From the NCBI RefSeq assembly GCF_902626525.1, contig NZ_CACOFR010000001.1, forward strand, positions 62,001-126,000: DNA of 64,000 bases, written 5' to 3'. Origin of the DNA: an uncultured Prochlorococcus sp. Its GTDB lineage: Bacteria > Cyanobacteriota > Cyanobacteriia > PCC-6307 > Cyanobiaceae. Each line of letters opens with the position of its first letter. The first letter of the stretch is position 1. The notes beneath the pieces were generated by a model. That model did not search any database. It was given only the letters and a program-made list of their open reading frames with translations, and had not been told where the DNA came from. The position numbers and the translations under genes were made by a program. Of the stretch, positions 11,131 through 52,266 are shown piece after piece.

Positions 11131-12402
11131 ATGAAACTCTTCCAAAAATTGTTGGTTGCTAGCACTGCTATGAGTTTAATGACTCCTTTAGCAGCTCAAG
11201 CATCTGACACAGTGAATCTTGAAGAGATGAATGATTATTCAAAAATTCAAAGATTCGACAGCAAAACATTTGTTAACCAAGTTAGCGAAGACATCGCAAC
11301 CATTAAAGGTCGTCTTGATGGTCTAGAAACTCTCCAGAATGAACTAGAAGCTGGAGCTTTCTCATCCACTACAACAATGGATGGTAAAGCTGTCTTTGAC
11401 CTTGGTTTTATTGACTACAGTGAAACAGATTCTGCTACAGAAGATGTAAACTTCGCTTATTCTTATACTTTAAACCTTAATACTAATTTTACTGGAGATG
11501 ACAATCTCTACGTTCGTATTAAGACTGGTAACCATAAAGGTTGGATGGTAGACTCCAATGACGGTGGATACTTAAGTTCTGGAAAAGATAGTAGTGATGC
11601 ACTTAAGATCGATAAGATCTGGTATAAATTCCCTGTCGGCGAAAGAAATACTGTATGGGTAGGTCCTAAGATTGAGAACTACTACATGCATGCAACTGCA
11701 CCATCTATATACAAACCTATTACTAAGCAGTTTACTTTAGGTGGTAATGGTAACGCTTACGGTGCAAGTACAGATACTGGAGCTGGTTGGGCTTATAAAG
11801 CGGATAATGGATTCGCTATTAGTTCTAATGTAGGTTCTAAATCAAAAACAACTACAAGTGGTACTGATACAGGTATTTTAACTAACGAATCAAAGACTAG
11901 TTGGGCTACTCAAATTGGTATCACTAAGCCTCAGTATTCTGCTTCTGTGATTGTTAACCAGAAATACAATGGTTGGACTGATGGTTACTACCATACAGCA
12001 AGTGCAGATGATGCTCTAGTTACTGGTGGAAACCATACTGCTGTTGGTTTAAGAGGTTGGTGGAGACCAGAAGATTCTGGAACACCTACACCTTCTGTCT
12101 CACTTGGTTATGACACTACTTCTTATGATGGTGTTTCTTCAGGAACTGACAGTTCAGAGGCTTGGTTCGTAGGTTTAACATGGCAAGACATGTTCACTGC
12201 TGATGACAGAATTGGATTAGCTTTTGGTCAGCCTACTATGCATGATGACGAAACTAATGATCCATTTGCTTATGAACTTTATTATTCATATAAAGCAAAT
12301 GATTCTGTAACTATCACTCCTACCGTATTTGGTGGAAATGATAGAGATGGCGGTACTGAAGATGTCTTCGGTGCACTTCTACAGACTACCTTTAAATTCT
12401 AA
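11131..12402 (+). CDS. som: outer-membrane porin (SOM-type), copy 1
   Basis: A 423-residue secreted protein with a signal peptide (LLVASTAMSLMTPLAAQAS, cleaved after AQA), a short SLH-like start (EEMNDYSKIQ) and a coiled-coil linker (DIATIKGRLDGLETLQNELEA), as in cyanobacterial SOM porins. A long beta-barrel follows, with alternating polar and aromatic strands and a C-terminal Phe (TTFKF). Such porins let small solutes through the outer membrane. The start ATG is preceded by GTGTGAGG. From residue 77 on, the protein is identical to copy 2. Both copies end at the same terminator sequence. Confidence 0.93.
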   Translation: MKLFQKLLVASTAMSLMTPLAAQASDTVNLEEMNDYSKIQRFDSKTFVNQVSEDIATIKGRLDGLETLQNELEAGAFSSTTTMDGKAVFDLGFIDYSETDSATEDVNFAYSYTLNLNTNFTGDDNLYVRIKTGNHKGWMVDSNDGGYLSSGKDSSDALKIDKIWYKFPVGERNTVWVGPKIENYYMHATAPSIYKPITKQFTLGGNGNAYGASTDTGAGWAYKADNGFAISSNVGSKSKTTTSGTDTGILTNESKTSWATQIGITKPQYSASVIVNQKYNGWTDGYYHTASADDALVTGGNHTAVGLRGWWRPEDSGTPTPSVSLGYDTTSYDGVSSGTDSSEAWFVGLTWQDMFTADDRIGLAFGQPTMHDDETNDPFAYELYYSYKANDSVTITPTVFGGNDRDGGTEDVFGALLQTTFKF

Positions 12403-12571: not shown

Positions 12572-12694
12572 TAGACAAATTTCAAGAAAAAGGATTTATT
12601 AAAATAATAAATATTTATACATAACGAAAAATAAAAACTTGAAAAGAGTTTTTTTATTACTATAATAAGTATTCAATTCCGTGTGAGGAAACTT

Positions 12695-13963
12695 ATGAAG
12701 CTTTTCAAAAGCTTACTCGTAGCTCCTGCAGCATTAGGACTCTTGGCTCCTATGGCTGCTACAGCAAACGAAGTAAATTTTAAAGCTATTTCAAATTATT
12801 CTACTGAAAATTCTGAAATAGACATTAACAATTTTAAAACTACACCTCAAAAAAACCTATTACTTTCCGGAGGGGAAGGTTTAGTTGATTCAGTTGATTC
12901 AGCTAGTTTCGATGGCGGGTTCTCATCCACTACAACAATGGATGGTAAAGCTGTCTTTGACCTTGGTTTTATTGACTACAGTGAAACAGATTCTGCTACA
13001 GAAGATGTAAACTTCGCTTATTCTTATACTTTAAACCTTAATACTAATTTTACTGGAGATGACAATCTCTACGTTCGTATTAAGACTGGTAACCATAAAG
13101 GTTGGATGGTAGACTCCAATGACGGTGGATACTTAAGTTCTGGAAAAGATAGTAGTGATGCACTTAAGATCGATAAGATCTGGTATAAATTCCCTGTCGG
13201 CGAAAGAAATACTGTATGGGTAGGTCCTAAGATTGAGAACTACTACATGCATGCAACTGCACCATCTATATACAAACCTATTACTAAGCAGTTTACTTTA
13301 GGTGGTAATGGTAACGCTTACGGTGCAAGTACAGATACTGGAGCTGGTTGGGCTTATAAAGCGGATAATGGATTCGCTATTAGTTCTAATGTAGGTTCTA
13401 AATCAAAAACAACTACAAGTGGTACTGATACAGGTATTTTAACTAACGAATCAAAGACTAGTTGGGCTACTCAAATTGGTATCACTAAGCCTCAGTATTC
13501 TGCTTCTGTGATTGTTAACCAGAAATACAATGGTTGGACTGATGGTTACTACCATACAGCAAGTGCAGATGATGCTCTAGTTACTGGTGGAAACCATACT
13601 GCTGTTGGTTTAAGAGGTTGGTGGAGACCAGAAGATTCTGGAACACCTACACCTTCTGTCTCACTTGGTTATGACACTACTTCTTATGATGGTGTTTCTT
13701 CAGGAACTGACAGTTCAGAGGCTTGGTTCGTAGGTTTAACATGGCAAGACATGTTCACTGCTGATGACAGAATTGGATTAGCTTTTGGTCAGCCTACTAT
13801 GCATGATGACGAAACTAATGATCCATTTGCTTATGAACTTTATTATTCATATAAAGCAAATGATTCTGTAACTATCACTCCTACCGTATTTGGTGGAAAT
13901 GATAGAGATGGCGGTACTGAAGATGTCTTCGGTGCACTTCTACAGACTACCTTTAAATTCTAA
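12695..13963 (+). CDS. som: outer-membrane porin (SOM-type), copy 2
   Basis: A 422-residue porin with its own signal peptide (LLVAPAALGLLAPMAATANE) and a different N-terminal region: about 50 residues of Asn/Ser-rich linker (NYSTENSEIDINNF) without the coiled coil seen in copy 1. From GFSSTTTMDGKA onward it is identical to copy 1. I take the ATG at 12695, preceded by GTGAGGA, rather than the GTG at 12683 that lies within this ribosome-binding region. The identical barrels should give the same pore; the differing N-terminal domains may affect peptidoglycan anchoring or regulation. Confidence 0.92.
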   Translation: MKLFKSLLVAPAALGLLAPMAATANEVNFKAISNYSTENSEIDINNFKTTPQKNLLLSGGEGLVDSVDSASFDGGFSSTTTMDGKAVFDLGFIDYSETDSATEDVNFAYSYTLNLNTNFTGDDNLYVRIKTGNHKGWMVDSNDGGYLSSGKDSSDALKIDKIWYKFPVGERNTVWVGPKIENYYMHATAPSIYKPITKQFTLGGNGNAYGASTDTGAGWAYKADNGFAISSNVGSKSKTTTSGTDTGILTNESKTSWATQIGITKPQYSASVIVNQKYNGWTDGYYHTASADDALVTGGNHTAVGLRGWWRPEDSGTPTPSVSLGYDTTSYDGVSSGTDSSEAWFVGLTWQDMFTADDRIGLAFGQPTMHDDETNDPFAYELYYSYKANDSVTITPTVFGGNDRDGGTEDVFGALLQTTFKF

Positions 13964-15119: not shown

Positions 15120-16142
15120 TTGCAAAATCTAAAAAAATTAATTTACACAGCGCTAACCTGTACATTTTTATTTAATACAAATTTACCAGCCAATTCAACA
15201 GGAAAAGAAGTCAGGGTCTATTCGGGTAGACATTACAATACTGATAGGAGTGTTTATAAAAAGTTTGCAGAACAAACAGGAATTAAAGTTAGACTAATTG
15301 AAGCGTCAGGAATATCTTTAATTGAAAGATTGAAGAGAGAGGGTAAGAATTCTCAAGCAGATTTAATATTGCTAGTAGATGCTGCAAGAATTACTAACGC
15401 TGCTAAAGCTGGATTGCTTCAAAGTGTAGAATCAAAATCTTTAGAAAATGATGTTCCAAAAGGGCTAAAGGACAAAAATAAAGAATGGTATGCATTAACC
15501 AGAAGAGTAAGAGTTATGGTGGCCAATCCAAAAGTTGTAGATGTCAATAAGATCAAGGACTATACAGATCTAGCTGATCCATCCTTAAAAGGTAAAGTAT
15601 GCTTAAGAAATAGAAAAAGTCCATATAATCAATCTTTAGTAGCTAACCAAATAGTTAATAAAGGTGAAGCAAAAACTCAAGCTTGGTTAAGTGGAATGAT
15701 TGCTAATGTTTCTCGGCCTTTTTTCCCTGGAGATATTTCAATAGTTAGAGCAGTTGCAAAGAAACAATGTGGAGTAGGAATTGTAAATCATTATTATGTT
15801 GCAAGGATGTTAGATGGAGTGAATGGTAGAAGAGATGCTCTCTATGCGAAAAAAACATCCGTTATTACACCTGATCCTGCACATGTAAATATAAGTGCTG
15901 GTGGAGTAGCAAAATATGCAACAAATAAAGCTGAAGCTATTAAACTCCTTGAATTCTTAGCATCTCCCAGTGGCAGTAAAGGATTAGCTGCTCCTACCTT
16001 TGAGCATCCATTAAAAGAGGTTAATCAAAATCCCATAGTTAAAAACTTTGGTGAATTTAATCCTGATAAGGTTACAGTTGATGATCTCGGGGTAAATAAT
16101 TCTCTTGCAATAAAATTAATGAAAAATGCAGGTTGGAATTAA
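15120..16142 (+). CDS. futA: ferric-iron ABC transporter substrate-binding protein (IdiA/FutA)
   Basis: A 340-residue periplasmic binding protein with a signal peptide (IYTALTCTFLFNTNLPANS) and the iron-binding fold of FbpA/IdiA. EVRVYSGRHYNTDRSVYKKF opens the mature protein, carrying the first Tyr/His ligands, and GVGIVNHYYVARML carries the paired Tyr ligands near the hinge. It delivers Fe(III) to the FutB/FutC inner-membrane transporter, whose genes are not adjacent. In Prochlorococcus this gene (afuA/idiA) rises under iron limitation. The start is TTG at 15120; no ATG is available. Confidence 0.93.
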   Translation: MQNLKKLIYTALTCTFLFNTNLPANSTGKEVRVYSGRHYNTDRSVYKKFAEQTGIKVRLIEASGISLIERLKREGKNSQADLILLVDAARITNAAKAGLLQSVESKSLENDVPKGLKDKNKEWYALTRRVRVMVANPKVVDVNKIKDYTDLADPSLKGKVCLRNRKSPYNQSLVANQIVNKGEAKTQAWLSGMIANVSRPFFPGDISIVRAVAKKQCGVGIVNHYYVARMLDGVNGRRDALYAKKTSVITPDPAHVNISAGGVAKYATNKAEAIKLLEFLASPSGSKGLAAPTFEHPLKEVNQNPIVKNFGEFNPDKVTVDDLGVNNSLAIKLMKNAGWN

Positions 16143-16202
16143 AACTTAAAATAATTAAACAGAATATAATTTATATAACTTTCTACACACTTATAAAAAA
16201 TG

Positions 16203-16287
16203 GGAGAGGTGGCTGAGTGGTCGAAAGCGAACGATTCGAAATCGTTTAATAGGTTACTATTCGTGGGTTCGAATCCCACCCTCTCCG
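16203..16287 (+). tRNA. tRNA-Ser (anticodon CGA)
   Basis: The acceptor arm GGAGAGG pairs with CCTCTCC at 16280-16286, followed by discriminator G. The anticodon stem AACGA/TCGTT holds the loop TTCGAAA, giving anticodon CGA. There is a long variable arm (class II tRNA) and a standard T arm GTGGG-TTCGAAT-CCCAC. CCA is not encoded. Its 3' end is repeated 227 bases downstream. Confidence 0.97.
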
Positions 16288-16514
16288 TATTTTCATATAG
16301 ACAGAACGTAGTCAGGGATAGTCAAATCGTCCAAGATGACTGTTATGACAGAGAAATTTAGTGAATAGTAATAGTCAAACACATCCAAACCATATCACAA
16401 ATAATCTGATGGTGTTGGGGTTGTGTTAGGATTTTTGAGATATTTTCTATATTTCTCTGGACATATATGGACACCACTGGACAAAATAGAAACATCCCAC
16501 TTCCACCCTCTCCG
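16288..16514. other. attachment-site-like segment (possible mobile-element scar) behind tRNA-Ser
   Basis: This non-coding segment ends in CCACCCTCTCCG (16503-16514), an exact copy of the last 12 bases of the tRNA at 16276-16287; in this second copy CCA follows directly. Near the start, TAGTCA occurs at 16309 and 16319 (10 bp apart) and again at 16372. Near the end, TGGACA occurs at 16458, 16468 and 16478, also exactly 10 bp apart. Such same-face repeats beside a duplicated tRNA end fit arm and core sites of a tyrosine recombinase. No integrase gene is present. Confidence 0.6.
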
Positions 16515-16536
16515 CCAAAATTTAATTTTCGAAAAA

Positions 16537-16857
16537 ATGACAACTAAATTAGAAGGATTTCAAAATAGGCAAAAAGATATTGGATGGGGTTATGCAATAG
16601 CTCATGTAATTCCTTTTGTAGGGCTATATTATGCCATTACCCGCAGAACTGTTACACCATTATTGTTCACTGTTTTGGGTAATTTTGTGATTGGATTTGC
16701 CTATGGATTTACTGTTGGAATAATAAATCCGAATTATGATGAGAAAAAGTTAGAAAACTCTGCAGCATTAATTGGATTAGTCACTGCGCCAATACTTGCA
16801 AAAAAAGGAATCGAAAAGGCTAGAAAATATGGAAAGGAAAAAATTGATTCGAACTAA
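16537..16857 (+). CDS. small membrane protein
   Basis: A 106-residue protein with two to three hydrophobic helices (IGWGYAIAHVIPFVGLYYAI, LLFTVLGNFVIGFAYGFTVG, ALIGLVTAPILA) and a basic C-terminal tail. The ATG at 16537 is chosen; the same frame is open further upstream, but that part runs through the duplicated tRNA end and is not credible. No domain recognised. It lies just beyond the attachment-like segment. Confidence 0.65.
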   Translation: MTTKLEGFQNRQKDIGWGYAIAHVIPFVGLYYAITRRTVTPLLFTVLGNFVIGFAYGFTVGIINPNYDEKKLENSAALIGLVTAPILAKKGIEKARKYGKEKIDSN

Positions 16858-17250
16858 TTAAAAATTTTTGTTGTGGGTTATCTTGTGGGATTTTCAACTA
16901 TTATTTGATAATCACTTCCTTATAGTTCCAATATAAACAAATATGGACTTAACTCAACTTCTGGACTCTTCGGTTTGATAGGTTAATTAGTATTCTTAAT
17001 TTTTTGAGTTCTAATTCCAATTGCAATGATATAGGAGAGTTATAAAAAATATCAATAGCAGCATAGTTGTTTTTTTTTTTAAGAAGTTTTGGTGGAATTT
17101 TACTGGTTTATGGTAACCTCAATCCCAACTCCAATCAGTTAGTTTTCCAGTGTCTCATGAATTCATCTCAAATAAAGATCTTCTCCGATTGATTTTTCTC
17201 TTTTGAAATCTAGCCTAGCCCTTAAAATCAGACTAAAAAATTACTTGGTT
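16858..17250. other. intergenic stretch without recognisable gene
   Basis: These 393 bases between two convergent genes contain no frame I would defend, no tRNA and no clear terminator. A homopolymer T-run occurs near 17070. It could be decayed sequence connected with the attachment-like segment upstream. Confidence 0.5.
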
Positions 17251-17496
17251 TCACCAAAATGGATCTGTAGTTAAAGAAACTTTTAAAAAACATTTTTTTC
17301 GACTTCTAATATCGCTTATACAAGCCCTTATTGTTTCTCCGTTAACATCTATTTCGCAGGCTCCGCAACTTCCTGTTAAGCAGCCAGTGGGAATTTCTAA
17401 ACCTGCTTTTTCTGCTGTAGAGAACCAATCATCACCCTCTGAAGCATATGTCTCGGTATTATTTGGCCATTTAATTTTAATTTTTGTTTCTTTCAA
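17251..17496 (-). CDS. [2Fe-2S] ferredoxin
   Basis: The 81-residue protein is a plant-type ferredoxin domain with the cluster ligands in CLTGSCGACEI (C-x4-C-x2-C) and a fourth Cys in IRACIS. The spacing is that of [2Fe-2S] ferredoxins, though the protein is shorter and less acidic than photosynthetic PetF, so it is probably a specialised ferredoxin. Its start overlaps the stop of cobQ by 4 bases on the same strand, so the two genes are coupled. A role in a redox step linked to cobalamin synthesis is possible but unproven. Confidence 0.9.
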   Translation of the reverse strand: MKETKIKIKWPNNTETYASEGDDWFSTAEKAGLEIPTGCLTGSCGACEIDVNGETIRACISDIRSRKKCFLKVSLTTDPFW

Positions 17497-50961: not shown

Positions 50962-52266
50962 ATGAATTTTACAAAAAGAATCCAAAAAAGTTCAGGTCCA
51001 GGTATTTTGCTGGCTGGAGCGGCTATTGGCGGCTCCCATTTGTTCTCATCTACTACGGCTGGGGCGCGGTTTGGATTTTCATTATTAGGCCTAATCCTAC
51101 TTACTAATCTTTTAAAATATCCATTCTTATTAGTTGGGACAAGATTTACCGCATCTACTGGTAAATCATTATTAGAAGGTTTTAAAGAAAGGAATTCTTA
51201 TTATCTTCCTTTATTTCTAATAGTCAGTTTAATTACAGGTACTTTCACAATTGCGGCTGTAAGTATTCTTTCTGGTGCTCTTTTAACTAATATTCCCTTT
51301 TTCTCTTTTTTCCCTGAGATAAATTTATCTATATTAGTTCTAGGAATCTCTGGAATGATATTAATTCTTGGTAAATATAAAGCTCTTGATAGAATTTCAA
51401 AATTTTTAGTGGCTCTACTTACTTTCCTAACATTATTTGCGGTTTTATCACTTTTATTTAAAGGTTCAATGAATGATTCTTTAAAGTTGAGTTTCTTTGA
51501 ACCAGAGGTCAGCCCATGGAAGTTAACTAATTTAGCTTTCTTGATACCTCTAATGGGATGGATGCCTTGCCCAGTTGAATTATGTGTTTGGCCCTCTTTG
51601 TGGATGTTTTCTCGAGCTAAAGATGCAAACTATAAACCAAATGTTAGAGAGGCAGAATTTGACTTTAATTTAGGTTATGTAATAACAGTGGTTACAGCTA
51701 TTTTCTTCCTTACTCTTGGGGCAATAACTATGTATGGCACTGGAGATGGAATGCTTTCTAGTGGAGGAGGCTCTTTTGCTCAGAAGTTAATATACCTTTA
51801 TACTGAATCGATTGGTGATTGGTCCAAATGGATCATTGTACCTGCAGCATTTGCAGCTATGTTCAGTACCACAATTACTTGTCTAGATGCATATCCAAGA
51901 AGTATTTCTGCTATTCAAGGTTTATTAATAGGCACTGATCTTGGACGTATGGATTCTAAGGCCGAGCGAAATAGATTTCAGTGGTGGATGATTGTTCATA
52001 TTTTTGCTTCCTTTATTGCTTTGCTAATTGCAAAGTCTCAAGGTTTAGGAGTAAAAGAATTTGTTTTTCCTGCTATGACTGGAAGTTTCCTTACTGCACC
52101 TTTATTTGCATGGATGGCAATGGATACTATAAATAGTAAGCTTGTCCCAAGTAAAAATAGATATGGATTGTTTCTTAAAACATTTTGTTGGATAGGTTTG
52201 ATTTTCTTAACTTTATTTAGTTTATTATTTATTGCGAATTCATTCTTTGGGATTGGAGTTGGTTGA
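50962..52266 (+). CDS. NRAMP-like metal ion transporter (atypical)
   Basis: A 434-residue protein with eleven hydrophobic helices, of the NRAMP-related group. In TM1 the expected DPGN metal motif is replaced by GGSH (LAGAAIGGSHLFSSTTAGARFG), and in TM6 the MPxD-like region reads MGWMPCPVELCVWPSLWM. These changes show it is a divergent branch whose substrate may differ from Mn or Fe; related proteins transport other divalent cations or organic substrates. It stands alone. Confidence 0.85.
   Translation: MNFTKRIQKSSGPGILLAGAAIGGSHLFSSTTAGARFGFSLLGLILLTNLLKYPFLLVGTRFTASTGKSLLEGFKERNSYYLPLFLIVSLITGTFTIAAVSILSGALLTNIPFFSFFPEINLSILVLGISGMILILGKYKALDRISKFLVALLTFLTLFAVLSLLFKGSMNDSLKLSFFEPEVSPWKLTNLAFLIPLMGWMPCPVELCVWPSLWMFSRAKDANYKPNVREAEFDFNLGYVITVVTAIFFLTLGAITMYGTGDGMLSSGGGSFAQKLIYLYTESIGDWSKWIIVPAAFAAMFSTTITCLDAYPRSISAIQGLLIGTDLGRMDSKAERNRFQWWMIVHIFASFIALLIAKSQGLGVKEFVFPAMTGSFLTAPLFAWMAMDTINSKLVPSKNRYGLFLKTFCWIGLIFLTLFSLLFIANSFFGIGVG

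Follow-up and report, generated by a model that had tools for sequence, protein, structure and literature searches.

A gene-free 227-bp insert at a Prochlorococcus tRNA-Ser(CGA) gene, probably a minimal tyrosine-recombinase element

The 227 bp that follow the tRNA-Ser(CGA) gene in the window, that is, the whole 64-kb stretch of DNA analysed here (contig C1 of genome G000; 1.53 Mb, 44 contigs, 96.8% complete), are very probably a tyrosine-recombinase element at the 3′ end of the tRNA gene that has neither cargo nor integrase, is predicted to be mobilisable in trans and belongs to a kind that has formed recurrently. Judged by homology, the 215 bases between its core repeats are the left end (LE) and right end (RE) of the G082 element family, joined across an inner repeat and free of cargo. 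Such elements suggest that mobile DNA can be reduced until hardly anything beyond its attachment site is left.

A precise insertion at the tRNA gene end

The original prediction, made from the window sequence, had described a second copy of the last 12 bases of the tRNA gene, followed by CCA, together with three TAGTCA and three TGGACA hexamers between the two copies. All of these were recovered (Table 1). The window has exactly two copies of the 12-mer CCACCCTCTCCG (0 in 100 shuffles), one at the tRNA end and one at 16503-16514, and the CCA that follows the second copy is part of the old junction. Nowhere else in the window does TGGACA recur three times at 10-bp steps, and the TAGTCA pair 10 bp apart is likewise unique (0 in 100 shuffles for each); three identical 6-mers at a step of 10 did not arise in any of 20,000 mononucleotide shuffles of the insert. 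A motif scan of the insert returned seven direct TRGWCA sites and none reversed, indicating that TAGTCA and TGGACA are variants of one motif. No ORF longer than 45 aa lies wholly inside the insert; two ORFs of 61 and 144 aa overlap it only partly, and the longer of them extends the flanking gene upstream.

Table 1. Features of the tRNA-Ser(CGA) locus in the window
Feature	Position	Strand	Description	Basis
tRNA-Ser(CGA)	16203..16287	+	Integration target, 3′ end regenerated by the element	tRNA call; Rfam tRNA, 62.5 bits
Core repeat, left copy (attL)	16276..16287	+	tRNA 3′ end CCACCCTCTCCG	Exact repeat search
Core repeat, right copy (attR)	16503..16514	+		Exact repeat search
Insert, 227 bp	16288-16514		Precise insertion at the tRNA-Ser(CGA) 3′ end; 215 bases between cores plus second core	
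Left end (LE)	16288..16430	+	Homologous to LE of cargo-bearing elements	Strong matches, 79-93% identity
Right end (RE)	16410..16502	+		97% to RE in G252; 74-88% to cargo-bearing elements
Putative left-arm direct sites	16298..16324	+	TAGACA 16298, TAGTCA 16309, TAGTCA 16319	Steps of 11 and 10 bp
Further putative left-arm site	16372..16377	+	TAGTCA	Motif scan
Putative right-arm triple	16458..16483	+	TGGACA, starts 16458, 16468, 16478	Exact 10-bp steps
Inner repeat pair	16412..16430	+	GTGTTGGG / GTGTTAGG	LE and RE homologies overlap here
CCAA	16515..16518	+	Next to the core in the empty G002 allele, now after attR	
106-aa gene	16537..16857	+	Small-membrane-protein look; flank, outside the insert	

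Elsewhere in the window, two adjoining porin-like genes (11131-12402 and 12683-13963) have different N-termini and a long C-terminal part that is identical by eye, which suggests a recent duplication or gene conversion.

The junction occurs empty, with the insert and with a full element

Three alleles show one junction empty, with the 227 bp and with a full element. In G002, CCAA and the downstream gene, with 91% protein identity to that of the window, directly follow the tRNA gene without any insert. In G000 the order is tRNA, 227 bp, CCAA and gene; in G082 it is tRNA, a 9331-bp element, core, a second module, a decayed core, CCAA and a gene 90% identical to the window's. A 55% relative of the downstream gene directly follows the tRNA gene in G005, there without CCAA.

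The 215 bases were matched at E 1.6e-17 or better in 12 of 266 genus genomes, G000 included, and eleven further genus genomes matched only at E 0.001 to 0.01, probably by chance. A near-full-length match in one place was found among the 266 only in G000 and in G019 (69%, decayed). The possibility that the 227 bases are conserved in every strain as a vertical feature, on which the original prediction would have failed, is ruled out by the empty G002 allele, the G005 junction and the restriction of near-full-length matches to two genomes. Phage records gave 29 matches to the query, and the 20 listed all overlapped its tRNA part.

Cargo-bearing relatives and their integrase

Larger modules share their left ends with bases 1-143 or so of the insert and their right ends with bases 112/123-215. 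Relative to the window, LE and RE identities were 84% and 88% for a 5032-bp module in G125, 83% and 76% for the 9331-bp G082 module, 79% and 79% for a 1272-bp module in G222, and 88% and 78% for a 2010-bp module in G149; partial or single end matches were found, among others, in G086, G061, G050, G240, G252 and G021. The comparison of strains proposed with the original prediction thus found, in these four genomes, cargo between cores in modules that share the ends and repeats of the insert. Cargo varied within one end family: by reading, G061 carries a TPR-like protein and G125 several unrelated small proteins.

In the full elements examined, the inner repeat GTGTTAGGG or GTGTCAGGG lies on both inner sides of the cargo; the window retains one set, and the LE and RE matches overlap at it. 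The inner repeat pair of the window would mark the junction at which cargo was lost. More generally, the inner parts of both ends had a 9-mer in common in 37 of 44 cargo modules of at least 900 bp, against 8.8 expected from internal windows, a sharing that is due in part to A/T-rich words and is missing from seven of the 44.

Among the products of the G082 element are a 444-aa tyrosine recombinase (PF00589, 34.9 bits; cut-off 27.1) with a PHROG integrase match, a serine resolvase and a small, 74-aa HTH-like protein. Among Pfam models, the integrase of G105 matched Arm-DNA-bind_3, and that of G082 matched no arm-domain model at E 0.01. Two integrase-bearing elements at the tRNA-Ser site (L033 and L127) carry, besides the integrase, a serine resolvase and either an HTH-like or an AlpA protein of small size. 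A Pfam scan of ten proteins, nine encoded by the G082 and G105 elements, recognised no conjugation family. In viral contigs, a search for the 444-aa integrase gave 18 pattern stretches, none confirmed as a relative, and exact scans for the LE motifs of families B and A (see below) gave 0 and 0.

As for the absence of an integrase, noted in the original prediction, the G082 integrase used as a query had no match in G000, and a PF00589 search of its 44 contigs returned a single tyrosine recombinase, which is a frame of 389 aa beside a cobO-like gene on another contig. Tyrosine recombinase frames of 386-395 aa (239 in one cut contig) were observed in 26 of 30 genomes (L140, at G000:C4:44061-47516, and others), with a cobO-like neighbour in both genomes read. 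Possibly this is a housekeeping recombinase that might act on modules without an integrase.

Repeats at 10-bp steps recur in right ends with different letters

The phasing of right ends was examined with identical 5-mers in the last 70 bases of 13 representatives, one per right-end cluster, using shuffles that preserve single-base composition only. Lag 10 occurred 17 times against 1.37 expected and lag 20 occurred 13 times against 1.16 expected, both at the floor of the test (p 0.0005); no other lag within 6-25 fell below p 0.1. The excess was weaker in 17 left ends, where lag 10 was seen 8 times (2.56 expected, p 0.03) and lags 15 and 16 were seen 8 times each (p 0.02).

The best triple begins 45-47 bases ahead of the core in five of 11 representatives, which belong to four right-end clusters, and its letters are TGGACA, AGTGTC, TGTTCT, TGTTCA or TCCTAT; in two representatives of another cluster the triple lies at 36-38 (GTGCCA, TAGTGC). 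Taken singly against shuffles of the same kind, five of the 11 reached the floor of p 0.002, one gave 0.044 and five were not significant (TCCTAT, 0.078, included); the 11 are not fully independent, as L065/L056 and L041/L192 each share a right-end cluster. A right-end motif occurred in the left end of its own family more than in those of others, a modest effect (p 0.024 and 0.025 for two counts).

Arm-type sites for integrases with differing specificities would be expected to look like this, with one geometry and different letters. The 10-bp steps had been likened in the original prediction to those of arm-type sites, and the joint phasing of the right ends and the position of the repeats support this putative assignment. 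The spacing of the right-arm triple resembles that of the lambda P′1-P′3 arm-type triple.

Modules without a recognisable integrase are the rule at this site

We read 139 tRNA-Ser(CGA) loci among the 266 genus genomes, drawn from the best tRNA matches and from stretches chosen from insert matches; ten of twenty chosen stretches were picked for matching the insert (some of their genomes also being in the tRNA-match list), so that family B is over-represented. Two loci were left out, L104 on a contig without the tRNA and L107 with the tRNA outside the stretch, and G021 (L107 with L251) was examined apart. The futA gene lies upstream in 41 of 42 rows compared, two of which are the window's own place. 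A ferredoxin-like gene lies downstream on the same stretch in 119 of the 139 loci, at 39 bp to 14,057 bp from the tRNA gene (median 2884).

The tRNA-Ser(CGA) end is a hotspot: forward core copies beyond the tRNA gene were found in 55 of the 139 loci, bounding 73 modules of 203-9331 bp, the window itself being counted. The 73 forward copies compare with 0.04 expected from base composition, and one copy lies on the reverse strand. These counts use an exact 10-mer and miss modules with degenerate cores; with up to two mismatches in 11 bases there were 116 forward and 26 reverse copies. Cores missed in this way make a few modules composite, with left and right ends from different families (e.g. 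L100_0, L100_1 and L130_1); these were kept in the counts. Two or more modules are present in 14 of the 55 loci, with a maximum of six.

Modules shorter than 4 kb make up 62 of the 73, and an HMM of 20 integrases recognised an integrase in only three (loci G082, G105 and G203), the G203 match having stops inside it in one search and lying in an open frame of 423 codons in another, so that its state is unsure. Modules without a recognisable integrase are therefore the rule at the tRNA-Ser(CGA) site. In one locus (L197, G108:C31 203-287 and 3001-3085) two full tRNA-Ser(CGA) copies lie 2.8 kb apart on one contig, which suggests a duplication or an assembly artefact.

A tight class of gene-less mini-elements

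The fourteen shortest modules measure 203, 213, 215, 227 (the window), 228, 237, 247, 257, 257, 260, 261, 261, 263 and 281 bp, and those above them run from 339 to 9331 bp. These minis lie in 13 loci, and ten of the 14 adjoin the tRNA gene. The longest ORF wholly inside a mini is 66 aa in one and at most 45 aa in the others. The 203-281 bp minis are thus a tight class without plausible genes, and they fall into five left-end families: A, with GTGTC arms (5 minis among 17 members), B, that of the window (1 among 13, plus the decayed one in G019), C (3 among 11), D (4 among 7) and E (1 among 3).

For ten of the 14 minis we found a cargo-bearing relative that matches both ends, the two matches overlapping inside the mini; the best case is L037_0 against L202_1, at 98% and 99%. 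None of the four family D minis had a cargo relative matching both ends. On trees, the fewest changes between mini and cargo states were four for the left ends of family A, five for the right ends of family A and three for the left ends of family C, of which well-supported branches force three, three and two, respectively; the mini labels are as scattered as shuffled labels. The trees of these two families favour several origins of minis at the tRNA-Ser site, and loss and gain of cargo are not told apart by them. The related mini in G019 has decayed cores, indicating that some minis are dead.

Below the size of the mini class, G021 (L107 with L251; contig C2 near 51,600-51,700) carries a 97-bp module between two cores that consists mostly of TTCATACCT repeated five times at exact 10-bp steps.

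Origin and mobility of the mini-elements

We propose that a full element is ordered as core, LE with direct arm-type sites, inner tandem repeat, cargo, inner repeat, RE with three arm-type sites at 10-bp steps, and core. The family B integrase would bind the direct sites in both arms and cut the core inside the 3′ end of the tRNA gene, and integration would restore the tRNA end on the left and duplicate it on the right. Recombination between the two inner repeats could then remove the cargo, leaving LE and RE joined across one repeat set. The mini class is about the size of the lambda att site, and a circularised mini would accordingly be an attP and nothing else. Since both cores and both arms of the window mini are intact, it is conceivable that a family integrase arriving on a full element, as in G082, moves it in trans or as a tandem with itself. 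In its widest form, in which attachment-site-only elements of 203-281 bp are born repeatedly by collapse between inner repeats in several of the five families, are mobilised by the integrases of their full relatives and act as fresh landing sites within growing tRNA islands, the proposal is tentative, and we regard it as somewhat less probable than its negation.

This origin is shared with a more passive reading that differs on mobility and to which we give an even chance, namely that cargo was lost by slippage between the inner repeats and that the remnant has since been inherited without further movement. The family integrase has no match in G000, the G019 mini is decayed and repeated origins are what repeated loss predicts, all of which agree with a dead scar; yet the cores of the window are perfect and its arms intact, minis retain both ends in five end families, and minis of family C, which differ in their right parts, occupy different array positions in G251 and G149. 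The original prediction had suggested an attachment site or scar of an integrative element, either an excised, minimised element or a docking site left behind. The minimised element stands, in that both ends are fused without cargo, and the scar of a clean excision falls, since such an event would not have left the arms and two core copies in place. The reverse order of events, in which the mini arrives first as an empty platform and cargo is loaded later between the inner repeats, would fit the words shared around cargo by the inner end parts (37 of 44 modules), the diversity of cargo within one end family (G061, G125) and trees that do not separate gain from loss; we consider it unlikely, as we found no loading mechanism and loss by repeat recombination is simpler.

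Readings that involve no mobile element fare far worse. Its position between a tRNA and a gene could make the insert a regulatory RNA, or a UTR of the tRNA or the downstream gene, with a fortuitous repeat of the tRNA end. However, only the tRNA reaches the Rfam gathering score in 15900-17400, the folding z-score is -1.46 with 21 of 200 shuffles folding as well, and the sequence is absent from the G002 junction and near full length in 2 of 266 genomes; the empty allele and the larger elements with the same ends refute this very improbable reading. A chance 12-base repeat accompanied by chance hexamers has a negligible probability, being refuted by the shuffles, in which the 12-mer repeat, the TGGACA triple, the TAGTCA pair and the step-10 6-mers never appeared, and by the strand bias of the core copies (73 forward versus 1 reverse in 139 loci). 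The cargo-less element at the tRNA end is thus the reading that we retain.

Relation to known systems

The tycheposons of Prochlorococcus were reportedly described by Hackl et al. in 2023, and they have their own deep-branching tyrosine recombinase. The host, the tRNA gene target, the tyrosine recombinase in full relatives and the diversity of cargo are alike here, and the insert lies at a tRNA 3′ end with that end duplicated. It differs in that it has no recombinase of its own, although its same-ended relative in G082 has one, and in being 227 bp long and gene-free, whereas the cited passages give tycheposons 4-200 kbp with cargo (PMC10872708). Cis-mobilizable elements (CIMEs), as outlined in the source, have lost integration and transfer genes and kept attL and attR (PMC5704250). 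The window element likewise has attL and attR without such genes, and tandem accretion of CIMEs at one site has its parallel in the 14 of 55 loci with at least two modules. Unlike CIMEs, which in that outline are decayed ICEs or IMEs, the elements here gave no recognised conjugation gene in the ten scanned proteins, and that of the window is devoid of cargo. It is the zero-cargo extreme of tycheposons and CIMEs, the closest known systems.

Modules in tandem, flanked by direct copies of the end of a single RNA gene, also occur, according to the passages cited, in the ssrA islands of Dehalococcoides, where some modules have no integration genes (PMC3146451), and in an additive island of Methylophilaceae with tRNA-Lys repeats, of 330 bp-42 kb (PMC10872708). 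The ssrA islands differ in using a serine recombinase (PMC3146451), and for neither island do those passages describe phased arms or an attachment-site-sized class (PMC3146451, PMC10872708). The attP of lambda is outlined as a 240-bp att site whose core is flanked by arms with several arm-type sites (PMC4880445). Whereas that site is one part of a complete phage, the mini is almost entirely such a site. MITEs, too, are short, lack genes, derive from larger elements and retain the ends by which they can be moved in trans. They go with DDE transposases and terminal inverted repeats, whereas the minis go with a tyrosine recombinase and a single tRNA site. In open-access texts we found no description of a gene-less tRNA-integrating class.

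The attachment-site anatomy given here for a Prochlorococcus integrative element family, with its arms, phasing and inner repeats, allows predictions of which integrase serves which gene-less or cargo-only module. It also brings out a size class that is invisible to gene-based searches. If the minis move, they would be to tyrosine recombinases what MITEs are to DDE transposases, and they would directly test how small such an element can be.

Exchange between lineages

Several ends are more alike between genomes than is the cobQ gene. The window RE is 97% identical to that of G252 over 93 bases (cobQ 84%), and its LE is 93% identical to that of G086 over 143 bases (cobQ 81%) and 88% to those of G061 and G149 (cobQ 79%), indicating that at least some ends have travelled. 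The LEs of G125 (84%, cobQ 84%) and G082 (83%, cobQ 83%) are no more alike than cobQ.

The minis of L111 and L226, in G247 and G123, are 96.7% alike, and their futA genes are 99.9% alike at a cobQ identity of 85%. This argues that the left flank was exchanged as a whole, so that the mini may have come with it by homologous exchange. The futA genes themselves are of two kinds, with about 62-64% and 82-90% protein identity to that of the window. Between genomes with cobQ at 82-85%, futA can be 98-99.9% identical (e.g. L111/L226 and L037/L109), so that the left flank of the hotspot, too, undergoes exchange.
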